DNA from: a virus
DNA: 42,543 bases
IMG/VR virus record: IMGVR_UViG_3300049825_000114
Coordinates: 1 to 42,543 of that record
Reading direction: 5' to 3' (one strand)
Made by a program: the position numbers and the translations under genes. Of the stretch, positions 3,555 through 42,543 are shown one piece after another. The notes under the pieces were generated by a model that was given only the letters and a program-made list of their open reading frames with translations, made no database searches and was not told the origin of the DNA. How positions within the stretch are numbered: position 1 is the stretch's first letter; each line of letters starts with the position of its first letter.

Positions 3555-5725
3555 TATTTCACATCCCCTCTACCCTTATACCAGTCTGGGCGCCCGTGCA
3601 GTTTCCTGGCCTGGTCGGCGCGGAACTGGCCCGTCCGGCGAAGGTCTTCCCACGTATACATCACGTACTGCGGGCGCCCGTTGACGATGGTGTGGACTGG
3701 ATACCCGCTATCGAACATGATAAGCCCCTTCTCGTCTCCACTCGTAACGAAGTACGCATTGGTGCGAAGGTGCTCCTGATATTGCTCCTTGGTGTGGAAC
3801 CGGCCTGACGTGCCACCCGGACCTGTAGGGAGCCATATGTTCTCCGGCGCCGCAAAATTCCCTCTCACGGCGTAGGCCCCAAGCTCGATGTTCTTTTGCT
3901 GGTCGCCGCCGCCGATCTGGTTGCGTGGCATCCGGTACGGCTTGCCAGCTATGTGCGACACGGTATACTCCGACGTTATGTCGTCACGCGCCCTCTCCCA
4001 CGCAGCCGTTGGTGATAGGCCCTGCTGCTTCATGTAAATCGCGGAGGCCCTGAGCGTCGCATCCCTCCACGACTCCACAGTCTCCTTGCCCCACTTGGAC
4101 GAGTAAGCCGTCTGAGCAAAGGCTTTCATCTTAGGGTCTTCGTTGAATAGCCCCTTCAGCGCCCTCACGTCGTCGTCTGGTATACCTTGAAGCAAATCCT
4201 CATTGGACATTTTATGACCGTCGGCGAGCAGCTTGCTTGTTGGTGTGGCTGGCAGCGAAAACAGTGCGCGAACCTTCGTCTGAAGCTTCGATTGTACCTC
4301 GCCAGCGAGCCTGTGCCAATTCGTCGGAAACCGCTCGCGAAGCATCGCCATAGCCTCCGGCAGCTTGGCGGGCTCCATGTTGTTGATGGCCTCAACCTCC
4401 TGCATAACGAACGCCTTCGGAGCCTCGGGGGAAAACGCGCCGTTGTCGAGTTGCTCCTTGTACGTCCTATCAAGCCATTCGTCGTATTGCGCATTAATCT
4501 GGCGCTGCAAGACCGCTTGCTTGCCGGGGTCCGTCTCGGCGTCCATCTCAGACTGAAGCAGCGTGATTTGCTCTTTCACCGATTGGATCACTGGGCTCTC
4601 TTGCACGTACTGCCCGCCGTCGGCAACTAACGCCGCCTCCTTGCGAGCGATAGCCGCCTCAACGGCACCGACGCGAGCATCCACTTCGCCGTATGACGAC
4701 GAGTCATCGGCCACCTTCGCGCGCATCGCCGCAGCTTCGCGTTTTAGGTCTGGGAGCTTTTTAGCTGGGTCGCCGACAACTGCTCCAGCCTTGTAAGCAT
4801 ACTCCATCTCGCGCTTGGCCGCCTTAGCCGCCTCAGGATCGTCGCCGAACATCTCGTCTATCATCTCAGGCGAGAAACGGTCTACATCCTCGGTCTTCGC
4901 GACGTTCCCGTCTGCGACGAGCTTCTTGAAGTCCTCGAACGAGCGAGCCCAGCGGCGCTTGTCGGCGTTGGCGTCTTCTTTGGACTGAGCCTCGCCCTGC
5001 CGTATATCCGTTTCAAGCATGTTCTCCAGCACGCGCCTATCGGTCGGGGCGAGCATCTTGTCGAACTCGCCCTTCTGGAGCCTTGCAAGCGTCCTGTACG
5101 GGCCAACCGACCGGCTCTTTCCCATACCCTCAACCCACGACCGGGCGACCGTGTTGACGGCCTTGCTCTCGGCTTCGGCGCGCATCTCGGAGGGGAGCCC
5201 ACTGGAACGCACAGCGCTCAGCGCCATCTGCACGGCATCCGCACCAAGCTCAGGTTTAGACAGCGCAAAGTTCGCCGAATTTTCAATGACGGCGCTCATG
5301 TCTTTCGACTTCGCGGCCATCGTCTTGCCGGTTTCTATTTTCAGTGCGTCGTTGTATACGGCGCCTCGGAACTCCTCCATCTTGAGAGCGAGGAACTGCC
5401 GGGCTCCGTCGGAAGGTGCGGCGTCGAGAACCCCGTCAATGCCGCCGTCATAGTCCTCCATCACGCGCGGCGTGAAGCCCTCGGGTGTATCTTCAGTCTC
5501 ATCCCTTTTCTGAAGCTCCGCCGTCCACTGATTTTTCCAATCCCCAAGCTGACGAAGCGACCATAGCTTGTCGCGCTCGTCCTGCTTGTCTTGCAGGTAC
5601 GCGCCAAGCTGCCGCCCGCCCTGAGCGATCACGTCGCCCAAGCCGCTATCGGTCCCGCGCGGCGCGATCCCTTGCGCGCTCACGCGCGGGCCTGGGCCTC
5701 CTGTATACAGTGGAATCTCAGGCAT
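3554..5725 (-). CDS. Internal virion protein, gp15-like, 723 aa
   Basis: Starts at ATG 5725 (MPEIPLYTGG) and ends at 3554. The protein is long, mostly helical and charged, without membrane segments. It has a Gly-rich N-terminus (GLGDVIAQGGRQLGAYLQ at about residue 28) and extended Ala/Glu/Lys helices around residues 300-430. Such proteins directly after the small gp14-like gene are the second internal core or ejection protein in T7-like virions. The C-terminus contains an ordered-looking aromatic segment (YVMYTWEDLRR). The role is inferred from synteny and composition, not from a diagnostic motif. Confidence 0.72.
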   Translation of the reverse strand: MPEIPLYTGGPGPRVSAQGIAPRGTDSGLGDVIAQGGRQLGAYLQDKQDERDKLWSLRQLGDWKNQWTAELQKRDETEDTPEGFTPRVMEDYDGGIDGVLDAAPSDGARQFLALKMEEFRGAVYNDALKIETGKTMAAKSKDMSAVIENSANFALSKPELGADAVQMALSAVRSSGLPSEMRAEAESKAVNTVARSWVEGMGKSRSVGPYRTLARLQKGEFDKMLAPTDRRVLENMLETDIRQGEAQSKEDANADKRRWARSFEDFKKLVADGNVAKTEDVDRFSPEMIDEMFGDDPEAAKAAKREMEYAYKAGAVVGDPAKKLPDLKREAAAMRAKVADDSSSYGEVDARVGAVEAAIARKEAALVADGGQYVQESPVIQSVKEQITLLQSEMDAETDPGKQAVLQRQINAQYDEWLDRTYKEQLDNGAFSPEAPKAFVMQEVEAINNMEPAKLPEAMAMLRERFPTNWHRLAGEVQSKLQTKVRALFSLPATPTSKLLADGHKMSNEDLLQGIPDDDVRALKGLFNEDPKMKAFAQTAYSSKWGKETVESWRDATLRASAIYMKQQGLSPTAAWERARDDITSEYTVSHIAGKPYRMPRNQIGGGDQQKNIELGAYAVRGNFAAPENIWLPTGPGGTSGRFHTKEQYQEHLRTNAYFVTSGDEKGLIMFDSGYPVHTIVNGRPQYVMYTWEDLRRTGQFRADQARKLHGRPDWYKGRGDVK

Positions 5726-5733
5726 ATCCTACC

Positions 5734-6282
5734 TCAATAATCCGTCCACGTTCCGGCGTCGGCATAGCCGCCCGAGCTTCCAGCACTACCACCATACGAC
5801 CCAGAGCCGCCACCAGGAAGGATCGACTTTGGAGCGCCCGTCGAACCGCCTGTGCCGCCAAGTGCGTCGATGCCCATTCCAGCAAGCTGCCCAGACGCCA
5901 ACCCAACAACACCCTTCACAAGCTCCATTTTTCCCTTGTAGCGCTCCATCCTGGCCTCATTGCGATAGCCGACGGCCTGCACCTCGCCCTCGTACTTGGC
6001 GTTGAGAGCGTCAAGCTCGAAATTGATATAGCTCTCATGAAGCACATCGAGCGCCGACCCACTCTCGGTTCGACCCGATGCACCGCGCCGCGCGCGCAGC
6101 CTGCCCATCGCATAGTCCGCGTCGCGCTGGACTTTCGTATACTCGTTCGCGGCCACGTTCGAGCTGTATACAGCTTGCGTCTCGGCTACCTTTGCGTTGT
6201 ACGAGTGGGCCTGGCTTGCCGACATCGCCGAAACGGCAGTGCCGACAGCCGCCATAACGGCAGTGATCGTTATTGGGTCCAT
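5734..6282 (-). CDS. Internal virion protein, gp14-like, 182 aa
   Basis: The protein opens with a hydrophobic Ala-rich helix (ITITAVMAAVGTAVSAMSAS). A long amphipathic helix follows, then a Gly/Ser-rich tail (GGSGSYGGSAGSSGG). This is the usual architecture of T7 gp14-type proteins, which form the outer-membrane part of the DNA ejection channel. The ATG at 6282 lies inside the end of the acetyltransferase-fold gene (13-base overlap). It is followed nine bases later by the gp15-like gene, the same order as in T7-like phages. Confidence 0.75.
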   Translation of the reverse strand: MDPITITAVMAAVGTAVSAMSASQAHSYNAKVAETQAVYSSNVAANEYTKVQRDADYAMGRLRARRGASGRTESGSALDVLHESYINFELDALNAKYEGEVQAVGYRNEARMERYKGKMELVKGVVGLASGQLAGMGIDALGGTGGSTGAPKSILPGGGSGSYGGSAGSSGGYADAGTWTDY

Positions 6283-18629: not shown

Positions 18630-19949
18630 CTATGCAAACTCATCGTAGTCCGCATCGGCCCTTGCTTGCAAGCCCCCTCTGGAGGACATCCCTGAGCCCG
18701 TCATGCCCCACATTTTCTGCGCAGATGCGCCAATTTTGAAGGCGTCCGAGCCGTTGGACGACCAGTCATGGAGCGGCTTGTCCGAGAACATCTGAAGCTC
18801 GTCGGACCATTCCTTGCGGAACATCCGCAGCGCCTCGATGCCCTGCTCGCACTTTTCCAGGTCGAAATAGCAGCGCGGAAGCATCTGCCGGGCCGCGCTG
18901 ATCTGGTCGGCGGTAGACAGTTTAGGAGCAACCTTGACCCGTATACCAAGGCGAAGAAGCGTCTCTACGCGAGAGACGCCAGTTCCAAGCTCGCGGACCT
19001 TCGCGTCGTGCGGTACGATATGTGTACCGTATGCGTAACCTCGGGAGCGTAGTTCGTTTGCGTACCACGAAAGCCCAACACCGTGGTTTACCAGATAATC
19101 TATCAGCCATATCTCGCGCCCAACCTCCTGCACAAACCAGATCGCCGTCGAGTCGCGCATCCCCAAGTCCCACCACGTATGCACAAGATGATCTGTCGAG
19201 TACGGAACGCGGGTGATTTGCTTGAGCTTGTCGAGGCGCTCCATTTGTTCGCCGAAGTACGAGCCGCGCACGGCTGCGTTGAACGAGCAAAAATACTCTT
19301 GCTGGATCATCGACTCGTCCATGCCGGACTTGCGGTCTTCCTCAATGGCGCTCATGGGGATCGCGTGCGTGTCGTCTACCGTGAGTATCTCGTTGAACCA
19401 CGACGGGTTCTTGCGCGCCATGTCGTACATCTTGGCGCCGTGGTTGCGCCCGCGAGGTGTATACGGAAAAATCGCCCAGCCGCCGTTCTCGGCAAGGATG
19501 GGCCTGATGTAATCCCACGCGGCAGGGTTCGCAATCGAGAACTCAGACATCACGAGCCCCACAGGGTTCGACCCGACCAAGCTGTCGTAGTTGTCCGACC
19601 CGCACAACTGCCAGATCGAGCCGCACTTAAGCTCTATCCTCATGTCGTTTTCGTGCGTGGACTTGCGGATCACCTTTGGGAACACCGCGTCGATCAACCG
19701 GCGACCCTGCTTGTCGATGCCATCCCATATCACTTTGCGAGCCTGCTTGGCCTCAGGTAACATGTGCCAGTATACGCCGACGCGCTGGTGTGCGGCGAAC
19801 GCGGTCCAGTGCATAGCCACGGTGTCCTTACCGGCGCGGCGATGCCAAACAAGGGCCGCGCGGATGCCGCCGCCCTCCATGTAGTTCCAGAATTTTGTCT
19901 GATACGGTCTACAGGAGAACTGGTTGGGGATCGTTACTTCGATAGTCAT
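18630..19949 (-). CDS. terL: Terminase large subunit, 439 aa
   Basis: The ATPase-nuclease that packages DNA into the prohead. I chose ATG 19949 (MTIEVTIPNQF), which has a GGAGG site, over longer starts that read through a structured leader. The ATPase part shows a Walker A-like HRRAGKD (residues 36-42) and a Walker B-like VMSEFS (133-138). The nuclease part shows D261 and D266 in TWWDLGMRDSTAIWF and D315 in HDAKVRE. Length is normal for the family. It is separated from terS by eleven small genes and directly preceded by an 82-base three-way-junction-like element. Confidence 0.92.
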   Translation of the reverse strand: MTIEVTIPNQFSCRPYQTKFWNYMEGGGIRAALVWHRRAGKDTVAMHWTAFAAHQRVGVYWHMLPEAKQARKVIWDGIDKQGRRLIDAVFPKVIRKSTHENDMRIELKCGSIWQLCGSDNYDSLVGSNPVGLVMSEFSIANPAAWDYIRPILAENGGWAIFPYTPRGRNHGAKMYDMARKNPSWFNEILTVDDTHAIPMSAIEEDRKSGMDESMIQQEYFCSFNAAVRGSYFGEQMERLDKLKQITRVPYSTDHLVHTWWDLGMRDSTAIWFVQEVGREIWLIDYLVNHGVGLSWYANELRSRGYAYGTHIVPHDAKVRELGTGVSRVETLLRLGIRVKVAPKLSTADQISAARQMLPRCYFDLEKCEQGIEALRMFRKEWSDELQMFSDKPLHDWSSNGSDAFKIGASAQKMWGMTGSGMSSRGGLQARADADYDEFA

Positions 19950-19960
19950 TTGCGACCTCC

Positions 19961-20051
19961 AAAAAAAGTGCCGCCAGCGATGGGGGTCAGGCCAATGGGG
20001 GGTGGCCTGGCGCTCTTGGTGCGTGCGGGGCATGAGAGCGCCGCTGGCGGC
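19961..20051 (-). ncRNA. Putative three-way-junction RNA upstream of terL
   Basis: On the minus strand a perfect 10-bp stem P1 (20051-20042 with 19979-19970) encloses two abutting hairpins. P2 has seven or eight pairs (20041-20010) and P3 has seven (20009-19988). An eight-base linker then leads back to P1. AC and seven T follow P1, then at once the terL ribosome site GGAGG. There is no gene in 19950-20069. It could be an attenuator, a terminator or a riboswitch-like leader. An alternative is a simple processed hairpin between the HNH gene and terL. Confidence 0.5.
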
Positions 20052-22600: not shown

Positions 22601-22871
22601 TTTCAATCTCCTGTAAAAAACCTTCCGACGTGCTCCAGGACGGAGGCACACCCTTGACGATCTTGAACCTTCGCGAGAACGCGATCCAGACCGCTTCCTC
22701 CATGTACATGCGCTCGATAAGCTCCTGCGAGTGTATCACGCACGAGAACACCGTGAACAAACACTCGCAGGAGTTTTCAGGGTTCTTCGGCATCCCCTGA
22801 CACCACGCGCGAAGCCCGGCCTGATAAACGGCGGCCTGTATACACCCCTCGCGCGTGCAAGACAAAATCAT
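22560..22871 (-). CDS. Cysteine-rich small protein, 103 aa
   Basis: ATG 22871 overlaps the stop of the SciP-like gene (ATGA). The first half, MILSCTREGCIQAAVYQAGL ... CQGMPKNPENSCECL ... SCVIHSQE, has several Cys/His that could bind a metal ion. The second half has an aromatic/basic segment (VWIAFSRRFKIVKGVPPSW). Longer frames upstream would overlap the SciP-like gene completely. Not recognised. Coupling suggests it is made together with the SciP-like protein. Confidence 0.55.
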   Translation of the reverse strand: MILSCTREGCIQAAVYQAGLRAWCQGMPKNPENSCECLFTVFSCVIHSQELIERMYMEEAVWIAFSRRFKIVKGVPPSWSTSEGFLQEIESGKRTYSDDPRAH

Positions 22872-23191
22872 GCAAAAACTCGTTTGTTGTGCTGCGCCGA
22901 AATCGGCCAACCCGGCTTCGCAGTGCCAGCATAAACCTGGCACCGGGAGATGCGCAAGCCAGGCTCGCCGTATTTCTTGCGCATGAACATCCAGTGCGCA
23001 AGCTCCTCGGCGGATATGCCGTATAGCTCGGTCATCTGAGCGACCGTCACGACACCGCCCTCGATCAGGCCGACCACCACACTCTTGCGGCTCACACACC
23101 AGCGGGCTCTCGGGTGGTGCAAATCCGACTTCGAAATAACGCCACGGAACTCGTCTCTGACGACGTTCGGGTCTTCAATCCTTCTGGTCAC
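22868..23191 (-). CDS. SciP-like (DUF1153) CtrA-inhibitor homologue, 107 aa
   Basis: GTG 23191 follows AAGGAG by five bases. Residues about 28-88 have the DUF1153/SciP layout: RWCVSRK (30-36), VV (39-40), GG (45-46), a helix-turn-helix with Y57, EE (62-63) and W67, then YGEPGLR (74-80) and QVY (85-87). In alphaproteobacteria SciP binds the regulator CtrA and stops it activating promoters, so this phage copy could reset the host cell-cycle programme or its own CtrA-type promoter at 24908. The 27-residue N-terminus and 20-residue C-terminus differ from host SciP. The family call is by eye. Confidence 0.78.
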   Translation of the reverse strand: MTRRIEDPNVVRDEFRGVISKSDLHHPRARWCVSRKSVVVGLIEGGVVTVAQMTELYGISAEELAHWMFMRKKYGEPGLRISRCQVYAGTAKPGWPISAQHNKRVFA

Positions 23192-23270
23192 GGCTAACTC
23201 CTTCGCTTGTGAGAACGGGCCGCACCTTACAGCACAGCCCGTTACTAAAGCGTATACAGATCGGCGGAAA

Positions 23271-23516
23271 CTACAGAGCCGCCCGAATCGCCGCGTCCTT
23301 GGCCTCCAAGAGCTTCCTGAGCGCAACCGTGCGCTCGGCGTTGCGCGGCAAGGATTCCACAACGAACATCGCCGTAGCCGCGAACACCTCGGAAATCGGC
23401 TTCAGTTTATCAGGCGGCAGGTGCGTGAACAAAAAAAACCTAATAATCGGGTCAGCCTCCGACGCGCTCATAAGACGCGTCGTCAGAGATTCCTTCAGCG
23501 CTGCACCATCTTCCAT
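23271..23516 (-). CDS. Acb2/Tad1-hairpin-domain-like small protein, 81 aa
   Basis: The sequence ADPIIRFFLFTHLPPDKL (about residues 21-38), LPRNAERTVA (56-65) and LRKLLEAKDAAIRA (66-79) follows the pattern of the Acb2/Tad1 hairpin family (hydrophobic-HLPP-...-LP-ER-AL--LLEAKDA). Known members in other phages are small sponges that bind cyclic nucleotides made by CBASS or Thoeris defence. ATG 23516 has GGAG eight bases upstream. It lies after terS and before the SciP-like gene. The family assignment is by pattern memory, so I keep it moderate. Confidence 0.55.
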   Translation of the reverse strand: MEDGAALKESLTTRLMSASEADPIIRFFLFTHLPPDKLKPISEVFAATAMFVVESLPRNAERTVALRKLLEAKDAAIRAAL

Positions 23517-23533: not shown

Positions 23534-24402
23534 GTATACGCGGTTATCTGGCCCCCGCACGCCTCGCAAGCAAACCCCTGCGTTGGACCCTACTCAGGCA
23601 GATCGGGTATCTCATGCGGCGCCGCAGGCGTCAAGTCTCCAGGCCCGACTCCCTCCGAAATTTCCCGGAAAAAATCTGGGTCGTCGTCTTCGAGACCTCC
23701 CTCCACGGTGATCGTAATGCGGTCAACGGCGGTTTGTGTATACGTGGTTTTAGGGCGGACCCCCGGATTATGCGTGGGTCCGGGCGAGAAAGGGGGTACC
23801 GGGGTCGCTGGGGCCCCGCCCCCATCCGTATCGCGCGAGCCATTCGTGCCTACCCCTGGGTCCGCCGCGTATACGCCTGTCCCGCCCAACGCCAGGCGCT
23901 CAGCGTTTGCAGCGTGTTGCGTATACGCTGAATCGTCCCGTGTCTGGGGCTTTAGCGGCTCACTCTCAAGCGTGTGTATACCTTTCATGCCTTGTGCCGC
24001 TAGGCGTATAAGGTTCACGACCACGCCCCCGACATCCACAGCGCCAGCATCGCGCCCGTATACACGGGGCGCAATCATCGCAGCTACCTTAAGCCGTACA
24101 TCCGCCTTGACCCTGGCGCAGGCCGCGCTCTCTTTGTCCTCTGCACTATCGGCGGCCTCAATGGCCTCATCAAGCAAGCGCTGAGCGTAATCGCCCACAG
24201 CGGCGTCAAGCGCCGAACGAAACGAAGGCACCTCGCGCGCCCAGCGCAGTACCGTGCGCCTGCTCGGCGATCCTGGCGCCTCACAGGCCGCGCTGAGGCC
24301 GGAGCCCGCGATTGCGTCGAGTAGCCGCTCAGCGTCGTCAGCGGCTATAGGTATACCTAGATAGTCAGGCAGTGTGATCGTTAGAGAGTTGGCCACGTAT
24401 AC
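23534..24402. repeat. Cluster of eight GTATAC palindromes
   Basis: GTATAC at 23534, 23738, 23869, 23921, 23976, 24058, 24351 and 24397, one per about 110 bases, against about one per 640 elsewhere in the window and one per about 7000 expected by base composition. Seven lie at or in terS. It is the densest region of the genome-wide enrichment. Confidence 0.85.
23590..24396 (-). CDS. terS: Terminase small subunit, 268 aa
   Basis: Residues about 20-120 have the usual small-terminase layout. A helix-turn-helix (GSPSRRTVLRWAREVPSFRS) is followed by long helices (LDEAIEAADSAEDKESAACA) and KVAAMIAPRVYGRD, ending in a common KxPKxYG-like motif. The C-terminal half is disordered and proline/glycine-rich. 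GTG 24396 has GAGG seven bases upstream, with a GTATAC palindrome between; a GCCTC/GAGGC hairpin can hide the ribosome site. Seven of the genome's GTATAC sites lie at or in this gene (24397, 24351, 24058, 23976, 23921, 23869, 23738). Confidence 0.8.
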   Translation of the reverse strand: MANSLTITLPDYLGIPIAADDAERLLDAIAGSGLSAACEAPGSPSRRTVLRWAREVPSFRSALDAAVGDYAQRLLDEAIEAADSAEDKESAACARVKADVRLKVAAMIAPRVYGRDAGAVDVGGVVVNLIRLAAQGMKGIHTLESEPLKPQTRDDSAYTQHAANAERLALGGTGVYAADPGVGTNGSRDTDGGGAPATPVPPFSPGPTHNPGVRPKTTYTQTAVDRITITVEGGLEDDDPDFFREISEGVGPGDLTPAAPHEIPDLPE

Positions 24403-24419
24403 GCCTCGCTTGTTGAGGC
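24403..24419 (-). promoter_or_regulatory. Ribosome-site-masking hairpin of terS
   Basis: On the minus strand GCCTC pairs with GAGGC across a seven-base loop, and the GAGG of the second arm is the likely terS ribosome site. A fold here would damp terS translation until another factor opens it. The stem is only five bases, so the effect is uncertain. Confidence 0.4.
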
Positions 24420-24471
24420 CGCGACGCTAGCACACGTTGCCCGGATCGGCGAAATGGCGGATTTGCGCCAA

Positions 24472-24765
24472 TGACACTAGAACCGAGTCAATGACACTAC
24501 CTATGACACTTGCCCCTCACAGCTAAGCCATTGATATATAACAATAAATGACGCTATGACACTAGAATCGAAAAAAGTCGAAAGACTTTCGTGTAGTAGC
24601 ACCTCTATAGGGGCGTCTGGTATATGGTTAACGCTATATGCTCACATAGAGCATAACCCCTATTCCCGTATATATATTAAAATTTAAGTGTCATATAGTG
24701 TCATAGTGTCATTATGCAGCGTCATCAAGCACTTAGCTATGACACTGCCCGACCTCTATGACACT
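24472..24765. repeat. TGACACT iteron-like array
   Basis: Nine exact TGACACT heptamers. Six are on the plus strand (24472, 24492, 24504, 24557, 24740, 24759) and three on the minus strand (24687, 24697, 24705). At least three TGACGCT variants (24549, 24718, 24770) lie close by. Most copies are preceded by A (ATGACACT), and several are 8-20 bases apart. The array flanks an A+T-rich core around 24665-24690. The arrangement fits an origin of replication with iterons or a set of operators for one DNA-binding protein. Confidence 0.7.
24576..24691. other. A+T-rich core with inverted repeats (candidate unwinding region)
   Basis: Within the array are AAAGTC-GAAA-GACTTT (about 24576-24591) and TATGCTC-ACATA-GAGCATA (24637-24655). 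A long-range pair ATAGGGG/CCCCTAT lies at about 24608 and 24657. A stretch of alternating T/A (GTATATATATTAAAATTTAA) follows near 24668. This is the most A+T-rich part of the window and holds no gene. It resembles an origin core, but function is inferred. Confidence 0.45.
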
Positions 24766-24827
24766 TCACAAGCGTCATGCTCGACGCCTGGTACCGCCGT
24801 TATAGCGAACCTTAAACCACAAAGCTG

Positions 24828-24873
24828 CATGTGAAACTTAAAGCAAATCACAAAACCACATGTGAAACTTAAA
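24828..24873. repeat. Two 15-bp direct repeats CATGTGAAACTTAAA
   Basis: Exact copies at 24828-24842 and 24859-24873. The starts are 31 bp apart, about three turns of DNA, so both would face the same side. Each copy is preceded by a CCACA-containing segment. They lie between the heptamer array and the CtrA-type box and could be operators for a second regulator of the rightward operon. Confidence 0.6.
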
Positions 24874-24907
24874 ACGAACGTAAACCTGTGATAATCGTTA
24901 CGGCGAG

Positions 24908-24939
24908 TTAATGTGATTTTAACTCGCTGCGCGTATACA
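24908..24939 (+). promoter_or_regulatory. CtrA-type box with -10 element driving the rightward operon
   Basis: TTAA at 24908-24911, seven bases, and TTAA at 24919-24922 form a perfect CtrA consensus box. It lies within a 9-bp inverted repeat (GCGAGTTAA/TTAACTCGC). TATACA at 24934-24939 starts 11 bases after the box, so the box replaces the -35 element, the usual geometry of CtrA-activated promoters. A start near 24946 would give a 75-base leader. An alternative is that the inverted repeat is simply an operator for a phage repressor. Confidence 0.55.
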
Positions 24940-24949
24940 CACTATTGCA

Positions 24950-24972
24950 GGCCACGGCGAACCGCCGTGGCC
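24950..24972 (+). other. Hairpin in the leader of the AAA+ ATPase gene
   Basis: A perfect 10-bp stem (GGCCACGGCG with its complement) encloses a three-base loop, just downstream of the predicted start site. It ends about 48 bases before the ATG and is not followed by a T-run. It would sit near the 5' end of the mRNA, where such stems stabilise transcripts. Confidence 0.55.
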
Positions 24973-25020
24973 GACGGGGCAATTGTGCCCAGAAACCCCT
25001 AGGAATAGGACACCCAGAAC

Positions 25021-26337
25021 ATGACAACCGCCAGAGAACCGAAACACCCCGACGCCCTCCCGTGGAAAGCTATCGCCCCGTGGAGTGATGACGCAATCTA
25101 TGCCCACTTCCTATCGCTTGGCCGCACACCGCGCCACGCTAAGAACTCGCTGAAGTTCCTCCGCGCACGCCTTGGCGACGGTTCGGCGGGGTATACGTCC
25201 GTTGTCAGCACTGGCGCCAGGCCGAGGAAGCCGAAGCCCGCGCCGGTCCCGGCGTTGCTGATCGACCCAGAGCCAGCCGCCACTCAGAATATGAGCCAGG
25301 CCATGCACGCGACACAGTCCGCGATTGACGAAGAAACGCGCCTTGCCAACGCCGCGAAGGTTCAGGCGATCCGCGCGACGCACGCCCACAGCGCACCGGC
25401 CAACGGGAAGGCATCCGACGCCCTCGCAGGCTTGGCGGCAGCGCTGGCGCCGCTACTGGGTGGCAACCTGCACGACCTCATTCGCGAGGCCGTGGCCGAG
25501 GCAATGGCAAGCTTTACGCCAGCCGCAACCGCTCAGGCCACAGCACCTGGTCAGGTTGTAGTCATCGAAAAGGGCAAGGAACCCCGCGCCCTCTCAGGTA
25601 TACACCACAAGCAAGCTGGCAAAATCATCAAGCTCGCAGGCCAGCGCGGCTTAAATGTGTTGATGGTGGGCCCAGCGGGTTGCGGTAAAACCGTATTGGC
25701 CAAATCAGTATCTCAGGCGCACGAGCGCCCGCTTACAGTGATTAGCTGTAGCGCTGGGATGTCCGAGGCGCAGCTATTAGGGCGCTTGTTGCCAATGGGC
25801 GCAGGCGGCGCCTTTGTATACGTCGAGAGCCCATTTATGAAAGCCTACGCGAACGGCGGGGTTATCTTGCTGGACGAAATCGACGCAGCGGACAGCAACT
25901 TACTTCTCGTTATCAACGCGGCCTTGGCTAATGGTGGCGTTGAAATCGAAGCTCGCGCGGCATCCGGCCTCGATACCCGCGTAGAACGCCACGCGGAGAC
26001 GATCATTCTTGCAGCGGCTAACACATGGGGAACCGGCGCCGATACTCAGTATGTAGGGCGCGCGGCCTTGGATGCGGCGACGCTTGATCGGTTCTATCGC
26101 GTCGCCGTTGACTACGACACGGACTTAGAGCGTGCCGTGTGCGAAAACTCCGAAATAGTGGAGAAGGTCCAGCGCATGCGCTCGCTCGCTCAGGCCGCGA
26201 AGCTTCGCAGGGTGTTGTCTACACGCATGATCGTGCGCGTTGATATGGCGACGCGCGCAGGCATCCCAATGCGCGAAGCCTTTGCCGATGAGCTTGCGGC
26301 ATGGTCAGCCGACGAACGCTCGAAAGTAGGAGCGTAG
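25021..26337 (+). CDS. MoxR/CobS-type AAA+ ATPase, 438 aa
   Basis: Residues 1-180 are low-complexity (Ala/Pro/Lys). The ATPase domain follows, with Walker A GPAGCGKT (217-224), Walker B VILLDEID (281-288), sensor N324 in AAANTWG and an arginine near R347 in LDRFYR. This is the dynein-related AAA_5/MoxR/CobS group, chaperone-like remodelers that usually work with a VWA-domain partner. The next gene looks like such a partner. The gene is first in the rightward operon, after the CtrA-type box. AGGA lies ten bases before ATG. Likely expressed early; the substrate is unknown. Confidence 0.82.
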   Translation: MTTAREPKHPDALPWKAIAPWSDDAIYAHFLSLGRTPRHAKNSLKFLRARLGDGSAGYTSVVSTGARPRKPKPAPVPALLIDPEPAATQNMSQAMHATQSAIDEETRLANAAKVQAIRATHAHSAPANGKASDALAGLAAALAPLLGGNLHDLIREAVAEAMASFTPAATAQATAPGQVVVIEKGKEPRALSGIHHKQAGKIIKLAGQRGLNVLMVGPAGCGKTVLAKSVSQAHERPLTVISCSAGMSEAQLLGRLLPMGAGGAFVYVESPFMKAYANGGVILLDEIDAADSNLLLVINAALANGGVEIEARAASGLDTRVERHAETIILAAANTWGTGADTQYVGRAALDAATLDRFYRVAVDYDTDLERAVCENSEIVEKVQRMRSLAQAAKLRRVLSTRMIVRVDMATRAGIPMREAFADELAAWSADERSKVGA

Positions 26338-26340
26338 ATC

Positions 26341-27204
26341 ATGGGAAAGCAACAAACCTATTGGAGATACGAAAGCCTCGACACTCTATTGGCCGAAGCT
26401 TTCCAGGCGCCGCACGTCGCGGCAAACTTGCGCCTGCAGGACTGGCGGCGGGTCGAGGGGGATGGATGGTACTGCAACGACCGCAAAAACATCGCAGGCA
26501 CAGCCGACGCTCGAAGGGCGTTTTCTGAGCCGCTATTCCCGGCAGGCGTTGCGCGACTTGAGCGCCTCGCCGAAAAACTCGAAGCGCCAACGCCTGTAAG
26601 TATACGCCGCAAGCCAGTGCGCGGCGACCACGGCGACGAAGTGGATATGTCCCGCGTTTGGACAGGCCACCTAGAAACCGCCTGGACACGCGCGGCCCGC
26701 ACGGTAACGCCGAACGTGGCCCGCGTGTTGATAGGAGTTTTTGTCGGTGGCGTTAGTGACCTAAGGGCCGAGGCGCTTGCATGGCGCGGCGCGGCTGGCC
26801 TGGCCTTGGCGGCAGCGCTAGACGGCGCAGGCTTTGCCGTCGAGGTCCGCGCCGTGCGGCGTAGTTTGCTTATCTTATCGGGTGGCGAAACCGGCCCGGA
26901 GCACAGCGTAGACGTGACGATTAAAGCGGTAGGCCAGCCGCTCGACACGCACAAGGCCGCGAGCCTCATAGCCTCGCCGCTGCTTTTTCGCGGCATACTA
27001 TTGCCGCACGCCGCAACGCACGCGCGCGCCGTGCTCGACACCGGCTCGTCTAGGACAGTAACAGCGGCGCCGACGATGCAGGACACGGCAGGCTTTGATT
27101 TTGTTTGCTGTGTACCTCACGAAGTTCTCTCACAATCAGCGGCGCAAGCGTGGATAACAAAAACCCTAACCCAGATCGAAGCGAAAGAGGAGCGCACACA
27201 ATGA
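26341..27204 (+). CDS. Degenerate VWA-like partner of the AAA+ ATPase, 287 aa
   Basis: Starts three bases after the ATPase stop. Residues about 125-170 (ARVLIGVFVGGVSDLRAEAL, then AWRGAAGLALAAALDGAGFAVEV) show a Rossmann-like strand-helix-strand as in VWA proteins. The metal-binding DxSxS is missing; the strand ends in VGGVSD. Later strands (SLLILSGGETGP) and a C-terminal domain (DFVCCVPHEVLSQSAAQAWI) follow. ATPase plus VWA-like gene pairs of this type occur in other phages. I infer a two-part machine acting on a host or phage complex. The target cannot be read from sequence. Confidence 0.6.
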   Translation: MGKQQTYWRYESLDTLLAEAFQAPHVAANLRLQDWRRVEGDGWYCNDRKNIAGTADARRAFSEPLFPAGVARLERLAEKLEAPTPVSIRRKPVRGDHGDEVDMSRVWTGHLETAWTRAARTVTPNVARVLIGVFVGGVSDLRAEALAWRGAAGLALAAALDGAGFAVEVRAVRRSLLILSGGETGPEHSVDVTIKAVGQPLDTHKAASLIASPLLFRGILLPHAATHARAVLDTGSSRTVTAAPTMQDTAGFDFVCCVPHEVLSQSAAQAWITKTLTQIEAKEERTQ

Positions 27205-41105: not shown

Positions 41106-42543
41106 TCACTCCGTAAATAGCTTGACGCGGTCTTCGCTTGGTGGCGCTAGGAACTCAACGCCGCTATCACTCTTGAGGTTGTCCTCCATACGCCGAAGCG
41201 AGCCGGGACTCAAGGCTTCCTGCACGTCGTACAGGATCATGTAGTCGAGCGCCGCCCTGGTGTAAAATAGATTGATGAATGGGGTATTGCCTTTCAGGAA
41301 GCTCCAGACCTGATCGTCAGGCGGCGCTCCGCCGTTGGCCCACCTCGCAGTTTGCCCGATCATCTTCGCCAAGCTCTCAACGTCGCCAGCGATGGGCCCT
41401 CCAGCCGACGCGAGAAAGCTCTCGCCGAACCTGTTCGACGTTGCCGACAGGAAATCTCCGTACAGGCCGAAGCCTCCACCCTGCACCATGGCCTTGCCAA
41501 ACGTCAGGAAGTTCGGGTTATTCTCGTCGTCAAAAATCTCAGGTGGCGTGCGGCCTTTGAGTAGCGCTTTCGTAGACAGCGACATATACCCAAGGACTGT
41601 GAGCGTGGTTATTAGCCCCGCAAGCTGCATCTTCTCCCCAAGGGGAATCCTAACCAGCGACGGCAGCACGCGCCAGAACTTGTCCTCCTGTGCGTACCGG
41701 CCAAGCACCTCGTTGATAAACGAAACTCCATACCCCTTGAACTGCATCATTGCTCGCGACAGGAAGCCCCACCCCGTCCCCGGCCTCTGCCCGGCGCCGG
41801 TCAACGCATACTGCTCCTTGATGCCAGCGCGAGGTATACCGACTGCCGTTCGGTCCATATAGTACGACTGGAGTTTTCGCTCCAAATTATCAATCGCCGA
41901 AAACCTGAGCGCCTCGACAGACTTGTCGAAGGCGTCCGGCAATCCGGCAATTTCCAAGCGCATGGCCTCGACAACGTCGGCGGCGTCCTCAATGGCGCTC
42001 AGGACAGCGGGCTCAGCGAGCTTGTCCAGGCGCATCCTCTTGCTGATGCCGCGAAGACCGTCAGCCCACTTCTTCCCAACGCCGACCTCAGCTTTAGACA
42101 AAAACTCCATCTCGCGGCGCAGCGTACGCCACACCTTATTGAAATCTAGCACCTTCTTGCCGTCGGGCACGAGCGGAGCGCCCTTCCCGCGAACCATGGT
42201 ATCCTCGCTCAGCGCCTCCAGTTTATCCATGAGCGTCTTCTGAGCTTCATGCTGGCGGCGCAGCGCGTCTATAGTATACCTGACAGTCTTGCGATCCGCC
42301 TCCGTCGCACGATCACCCATCGCGCCAAGCTGCTGCTCAAGCCTCTCGATGCGCTCGCTCGACTTTATCATCTTGTCGTTTATCTTCGACATACGCCGCG
42401 TCACGCGATCCTTGACCTCCGCAAGCTGCACGTCGATCAACTCGTCCACGCCCTCCGGCTCCATCAAGCGAACGGTGTCGCCTGTGATTACCTTGTGCCC
42501 ACCGTCCATCTCTGTCACGCCGCGCGTGCGCAAAACCTCCCAC
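41106..42543 (-). CDS. Large internal virion (ejection) protein, C-terminal part of the gene starting at 1785
   Basis: This is the same reading frame that runs off base 1. It ends in ...DRVKLFTE and stop at 41106. The first part is strongly helical and charged (coiled coil around MSKINDKMIKSSERIERLEQQ). A hydrophobic stretch (MQLAGLITTLTVLGYMSLST) near the last third could insert in a membrane, as expected for an ejected channel protein. The TTG at 42533 is an internal codon and not a start; the true start is at 1785. The tail fibre gene begins seven bases after the stop. Confidence 0.75.
   Translation of the reverse strand, partial: WEVLRTRGVTEMDGGHKVITGDTVRLMEPEGVDELIDVQLAEVKDRVTRRMSKINDKMIKSSERIERLEQQLGAMGDRATEADRKTVRYTIDALRRQHEAQKTLMDKLEALSEDTMVRGKGAPLVPDGKKVLDFNKVWRTLRREMEFLSKAEVGVGKKWADGLRGISKRMRLDKLAEPAVLSAIEDAADVVEAMRLEIAGLPDAFDKSVEALRFSAIDNLERKLQSYYMDRTAVGIPRAGIKEQYALTGAGQRPGTGWGFLSRAMMQFKGYGVSFINEVLGRYAQEDKFWRVLPSLVRIPLGEKMQLAGLITTLTVLGYMSLSTKALLKGRTPPEIFDDENNPNFLTFGKAMVQGGGFGLYGDFLSATSNRFGESFLASAGGPIAGDVESLAKMIGQTARWANGGAPPDDQVWSFLKGNTPFINLFYTRAALDYMILYDVQEALSPGSLRRMEDNLKSDSGVEFLAPPSEDRVKLFTE
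42417..42543. repeat. Terminal direct repeat, right copy
   Basis: Identical to bases 1-127. It lies inside the coding sequence of the large internal virion protein, in the same frame as the left copy, which supports joining the two ends. Confidence 0.95.

Follow-up and report, generated by a model that had tools for sequence, protein, structure and literature searches.

The window, i.e. the whole 42,543-nucleotide stretch of DNA analysed here, is a complete podophage genome of ~42.4 kb with 127-bp terminal repeats (positions 1-127 recur at 42417-42543), and one internal virion protein gene (phrog_684) is divided between both genome ends. The gene content includes an HTVC010P-like capsid, T7-like internal and tail proteins and RecE/RecT; no integrase was seen in the genome, and neither tRNA nor GcrA genes were found in it. 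Between the genes for the small and the large terminase subunit lies a candidate gene for SciP, and the leftward operon that holds it faces a rightward cobS-like gene across a divergent control region (Table 1). The rightward gene (25021-27204, +) encodes a CobS/CbbQ-like AAA ATPase, whose PHROG match carries the label porphyrin biosynthesis and which adjoins a DUF7192 protein. The stem-loop in the leader of the candidate SciP gene is a possible, weak candidate for a terminator or attenuator.

Table 1. Features of the DUF1153/SciP-family locus and the divergent control region (positions in the window)
Feature	Position	Strand	Basis
Terminase large subunit, downstream of the DUF1153 gene, same direction	18630-20033	-	phrog_2, E 4e-21
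DUF1153/SciP-family protein, 107 aa; GTG start at 23191, stop ends at 22868	22868-23191	-	Pfam PF06627; PDB 2oa4/2jrt by sequence and fold
Ribosome-binding site AAGGAG, ends 6 nt before the GTG of the DUF1153 gene	23198-23203	-	read from sequence
13-bp stem-loop in leader, between upstream gene and ribosome-binding site	23214-23243	-	RNA fold of 23185-23270, z -1.81
Phage protein phrog_1761, 81 aa, upstream neighbour of the DUF1153 gene	23271-23516	-	PHROG match
Terminase small subunit-like, first gene of the leftward operon holding the DUF1153 gene	23590-24396	-	PF20901, E 3.7e-16; phrog_1482
624-bp divergent control region, leftward operon versus rightward cobS-like gene	24397-25020		ORF map, sequence
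Nine (A/T)ATGACACT iterons (TATGACACT-type), both orientations	24470-24765		9/10 genome matches fall here
CtrA half-site TTAACCAT, only one in the genome, towards the terminase/DUF1153 operon	24624-24631	-	local chance 1.3-2.4%
CtrA-like full box with one mismatch (TTAAAACGAACGTAA)	24869-24883	+	motif scan
CtrA full box TTAA-N7-TTAA, only exact one in the genome	24908-24922		local chance about 1.5%

The sequence-only reading had described the 107-aa protein as carrying the conserved DUF1153/SciP core, and all the motifs that it named were located (R30-W31, R35-K36, V39-V40, YGEPGLR at 74-80 and Q85-x-Y87). Moreover, the profile search that it proposed as a check matched Pfam DUF1153 (PF06627) with E 2.5e-14 and 53.6 bits, over twice the cut-off of 23.5, and the match spans residues 18-87 of the protein and 16-86 of the 87 profile positions. 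By phmmer, the protein matched the solved DUF1153 proteins 2oa4 (1.8e-8) and 2jrt (4.4e-8) and was alignable from residue 3. In a 72-sequence alignment, 9/9 invariant columns were kept (R30, W31, R35, K36, V39, E63, W67, G75 and L79), while the identity to host and phage homologues is just 24-38%. An AlphaFold model built with DUF1153 family members in the alignment had a mean pLDDT of 72.6, and its best two structural matches in the PDB were 2jrt and 2oa4 (probability 1.00, TM 0.50-0.65, E about 1e-3); the single-sequence model was poor and unusable, and a BFVD fold search gave no convincing viral match. In total, we conclude that the phage protein almost certainly belongs to the DUF1153/SciP family.

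Both arms of the protein had been taken to differ from the family. This holds for the C-terminal ~20 residues, which form an unstructured extension (AlphaFold pLDDT < 50). The N-terminal arm still aligns to the family pattern V.GP.G.PLT..DLPPP.T and is modelled as a hairpin, and residues that are near-constant in hosts are replaced in it (P14->E, G16->R, P25->H and T28->R). T24 and T65 are loss-of-function positions of SciP (PMC4241560). They would correspond to Ser20 and Ser60 in the phage protein, both conservative changes, in a mapping that relies on their 41-residue spacing on a Phenylobacterium homologue (L165).

The DUF1153 protein is without any PHROG, a search with its own sequence in 50,697 phage records gave no match, and no counterpart was present in 81 related viral records, which had been selected through their connector, terminase or AAA ATPase and many of which are fragments. 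The gene is therefore most likely an accessory acquisition of the podophage. The available sequence of the nearest sister phage (L002; capsid 91%) stops short of the DUF1153 region. A search of 84,980 genomes with peptides of the protein itself found no close cellular relative and no near-identical host gene, and the capture was thus probably not recent. The DUF1153 tree has long branches and does not place the origin of the podophage copy. A single phage clade was not rejected (p-AU 0.23), and independent captures by phages are therefore argued from their differing backgrounds only.

GANTC is the methylation site of CcrM. In the podophage genome, GANTC occurs 60 times versus 136 expected (0.44) and is the most depleted of the 16 palindromic pentamers; it is likewise depleted in the sister phage (5 versus 24 expected) and in L088, L177, L179 and L180. 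Because of this depletion and the CtrA-type sites in Table 1, the host is likely an alphaproteobacterium with CcrM methylation, and the alphaproteobacterial setting assumed by the sequence-only reading is accordingly probable. In a sample of the class around Erythrobacter sp. NAP1, DUF1153 was found in 41/95 genomes. Several 6-bp palindromes are missing from the podophage genome (CCGCGG, CGATCG and CTCGAG). By contrast with these, the palindrome GTATAC has 66 sites (991 to 42279) without a flanking consensus, versus 3.3 expected from dinucleotide shuffles or 8.2 from a trinucleotide model, and 16 sites in 8.7 kb of the sister phage versus 1.5 expected; no such excess is seen in other relatives or at host loci. 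GTATAC was also considered as a DUF1153 operator and rejected as a trait of the family, since only 0-1 copies are present at the loci of other DUF1153 phages.

The control region makes up 1.5% of the genome and is its one divergent control region. The TTAA-N7-TTAA box and the TTAACCAT half-site are established CtrA motifs (PMC3692519, PMC6180460), and the joint chance of finding the only full box and the only half-site in this region is about 0.015-0.075%, given the composition of the region and with the co-occurrence noticed post hoc. Full boxes with 0-1 mismatch number 4 in the genome versus 1.95 expected. The two sites are thus intergenic and clustered as in CtrA-controlled phages, although the numbers are small and the comparison is post hoc. 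The full box lies inside the palindrome GAGTTAA-N7-TTAACTC, which could be an operator of another kind. A 31-bp tandem repeat occupies 24814-24875. Given the iterons and tandem repeats, the control region may be a replication origin; the iterons possibly mark such an origin or an operator array. A scan for sigma-70 promoters and terminators gave nothing above chance, and the control region showed no sigma-70-like promoter. Altogether, a link between the DUF1153 protein and a CtrA-type control region of the phage itself is plausible.

SciP is a small alphaproteobacterial protein that restrains CtrA, the master switch of the cell cycle. As described in the passage on SciP in PMC6169604, which cites Gora 2010, the Caulobacter protein binds CtrA, leaves it on the DNA and blocks recruitment of RNA polymerase at CtrA-activated promoters. 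Over-expression of SciP reduces the output of a gene under the CtrA pathway (PMC4241560), and host sciP genes are in turn targets of CtrA, that of Caulobacter being CtrA-driven (PMC7200025, PMC6169604). Caulobacter SciP also binds DNA directly, at GCGAC and GCGNC-N5-GNCGC (PMC4287350). This motif was not enriched in the podophage: the control region contains a single GCGAC, with the closest CtrA-type site about 200 bp away, and the full motif is absent. A protein-protein route is therefore likelier than DNA binding.

Most simply, the protein would serve the phage as its own brake on CtrA-activated transcription. An alphaproteobacterial podophage would have taken up a SciP (DUF1153) gene and keep it as an accessory within the terminase part of the leftward operon. 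The protein would dock on CtrA at CtrA-type promoters and block activation by RNA polymerase; it would thus dampen CtrA-activated host genes and modulate the divergent control region of the phage, in which the only full box and the only half-site lie. This action through CtrA, tuning CtrA-activated transcription, is the likeliest of the readings, and we give it about even odds: the CtrA-type sites are new, circumstantial support for a link to CtrA, and we infer CtrA binding, repression, and the direction and timing of the effect. The conservative changes at the two loss-of-function positions, the place of host sciP genes among the CtrA targets, the CtrA-type sites in other DUF1153 phages and the GcrA homologue that accompanies DUF1153 in L088/G059 also favour the model. 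It is weakened by the low identity and the replaced host-constant residues, by the lack of enrichment of the SciP DNA motif, by three DUF1153 records without CtrA-type sites, by the post hoc statistics, by the palindrome around the full box, by the lack of a sigma-70-like promoter at the control region and by the tree, which does not place the podophage copy. Of the earlier proposal that the phage switches off its own CtrA-type promoter, the link to the control region is plausible; the switching off itself would be a further step. The proposal that the cell is held in a replication-competent state is not supported: since SciP leaves CtrA on the DNA according to the same passage of PMC6169604, phage SciP should not relieve the CtrA block of an origin, except indirectly via lower ctrA transcription.

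Beyond the podophage, the profile search identified DUF1153 in 7 other viral records, i.e. G059/L088, G060/L091 with its near-copy G061, G062/L089, G063 (two copies), G064/L179, G065/L180 and Erythrobacter phage XM05. CtrA-type sites lie near or within the block holding DUF1153 in 4/8 of these records, podophage included. The strongest case is XM05, in which XM05_97, annotated as hypothetical, is a 64-aa DUF1153 protein. Of 38 half-sites in this phage, 35 share a block with the DUF1153 gene at 75.1-97.9 kb, and all 7 full boxes lie at 78.2-97.8 kb. This 22.8-kb block contains about 40 small genes, TTAA is intergenic in 143/146 cases, and many genes of the block (L284, 75-98 kb) have a common upstream module of TTAACCAT, TTGACC and GAATC elements, as if they were wired to host CtrA and CcrM/GcrA. 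The SciP DNA motif was not enriched at the XM05 half-sites. G060/L091 has 6 half-sites in 38.7 kb versus about 0.7 expected, and one of them precedes the DUF1153 gene, at a distance of 41-48 bp from its TTG or 74-81 bp from its ATG. In G064, the single full box and the DUF1153 gene are about 0.8 kb apart. No CtrA-type site was found in G059, G062 and G065, at least one of which is a short fragment, and no half-site was found in a control set of 10 phage records without DUF1153 that had been chosen for GANTC depletion (338 kb). At least one half-site is thus present in 5/8 DUF1153 records versus 0/10 control records (Fisher p about 0.007, post hoc and with unequal records).

DUF1153 was also observed in other contexts. 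The phage contig L088/G059 combines a GcrA homologue (PF07750, E 4e-10) with a DUF1153 protein near its terminase gene (4007-4354, -; 5953-6243, +). In L177 (5989-7350, +), one frame of 453 aa joins DUF1153 to a hydrophobic stretch and a long C-terminal portion, as a fusion or by read-through. The Sphingomonadaceae conjugative plasmids pLA4 and pBAR3 (L082, L084) carry DUF1153 genes, and mobile SciP copies therefore extend beyond phages; in a Paracoccus plasmid (L087, 971-1899), the gene immediately downstream of a DUF1153 gene encodes a CtrA-like response regulator. The DUF1153 gene of L090/L175 is a host SciP gene at the edge of a prophage and was left out of the phage gene count.

We tentatively suggest, as a reading that may well not hold, that alphaproteobacterial phages have repeatedly linked the control regions of their genomes to host CtrA and encode a SciP of their own, which adjusts the gain or terminates the CtrA phase. 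Such a SciP would be a co-regulator, encoded by the phage, of a cell-cycle response regulator and would form a phage-owned CtrA-SciP feedback loop. This reading is clearest in XM05 and in contig G060, in which a half-site precedes the DUF1153 gene.

Alternatively, the protein could be a DNA-binding regulator with the DUF1153 fold that has lost the contact to CtrA and controls the phage's own transcription, its HTH binding a phage operator, e.g. in the 24.4-25.0-kb region. The HTH fold, the C-terminal extension, the strong divergence at host-constant positions, the operator-like region with its iterons, tandem repeats and 21-bp palindrome, and the direct DNA binding of Caulobacter SciP (PMC4287350) all agree with such a regulator. 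However, the invariant DUF1153 core is retained, this explanation does not predict the CtrA-type sites found again in unrelated phages with DUF1153, and an unsystematic look revealed no repeated operator common to these phages; we consider it unlikely. In a role in host takeover only, the protein would repress host genes for motility, pili or the envelope that CtrA activates, for example to prevent superinfection or conserve energy, and the phage would have its CtrA-type sites by coincidence. This role accords with the best known SciP targets, which are CtrA-activated host genes, with the lowered pathway output upon over-expression (PMC4241560) and with the accessory nature of the gene and its place in the terminase region. 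It is at odds with the joint occurrence of the two sites in the control region and with the same association in other DUF1153 phages, and we regard it as distinctly improbable. Finally, the gene could be of host origin, captured or in decay, and have no function for the phage, to which the lack of a counterpart in the related phages searched and the long branch would point. This is least probable, as the frame is intact with a good ribosome-binding site, all nine invariant residues persist despite great divergence, and the protein's own peptides identify no close cellular relative.

A phage-owned brake on CtrA would, if true, make the phage protein a small, portable CtrA inhibitor and suggest how CtrA-wired phages exit the CtrA-controlled phase. 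We found no report of a phage SciP or a phage CtrA antagonist in the open-access literature searched. Phages are known to carry analogues of GcrA and CcrM and to use host CtrA sites. The phage resembles HTVC010P-type podophages in its major capsid protein, which has 36-38% identity to those of HTVC010P and HTVC034P, whereas the searches of phage records and of the related viral records described above gave no DUF1153 match. Host SciP of Caulobacter and other alphaproteobacteria is of the same family and fold and has the same invariant core (RW/RK/V/E/W/G/L); the podophage copy differs from it in being phage-borne, in its low identity, in the replaced N-terminal residues and in its C-terminal extension. 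The GcrA homologue of phiCbK (PMC3556154) is likewise an alphaproteobacterial cell-cycle transcription regulator on a phage; however, it belongs to PF07750, and GcrA up-regulates S-phase genes while SciP restrains CtrA-activated ones. In CtrA-controlled phages with lytic deferment, CtrA sites in the control regions hand transcription to host CtrA (PMC9437464), and the podophage resembles them by its CtrA-type sites; while these phages were not reported with SciP, the podophage encodes its own SciP homologue.
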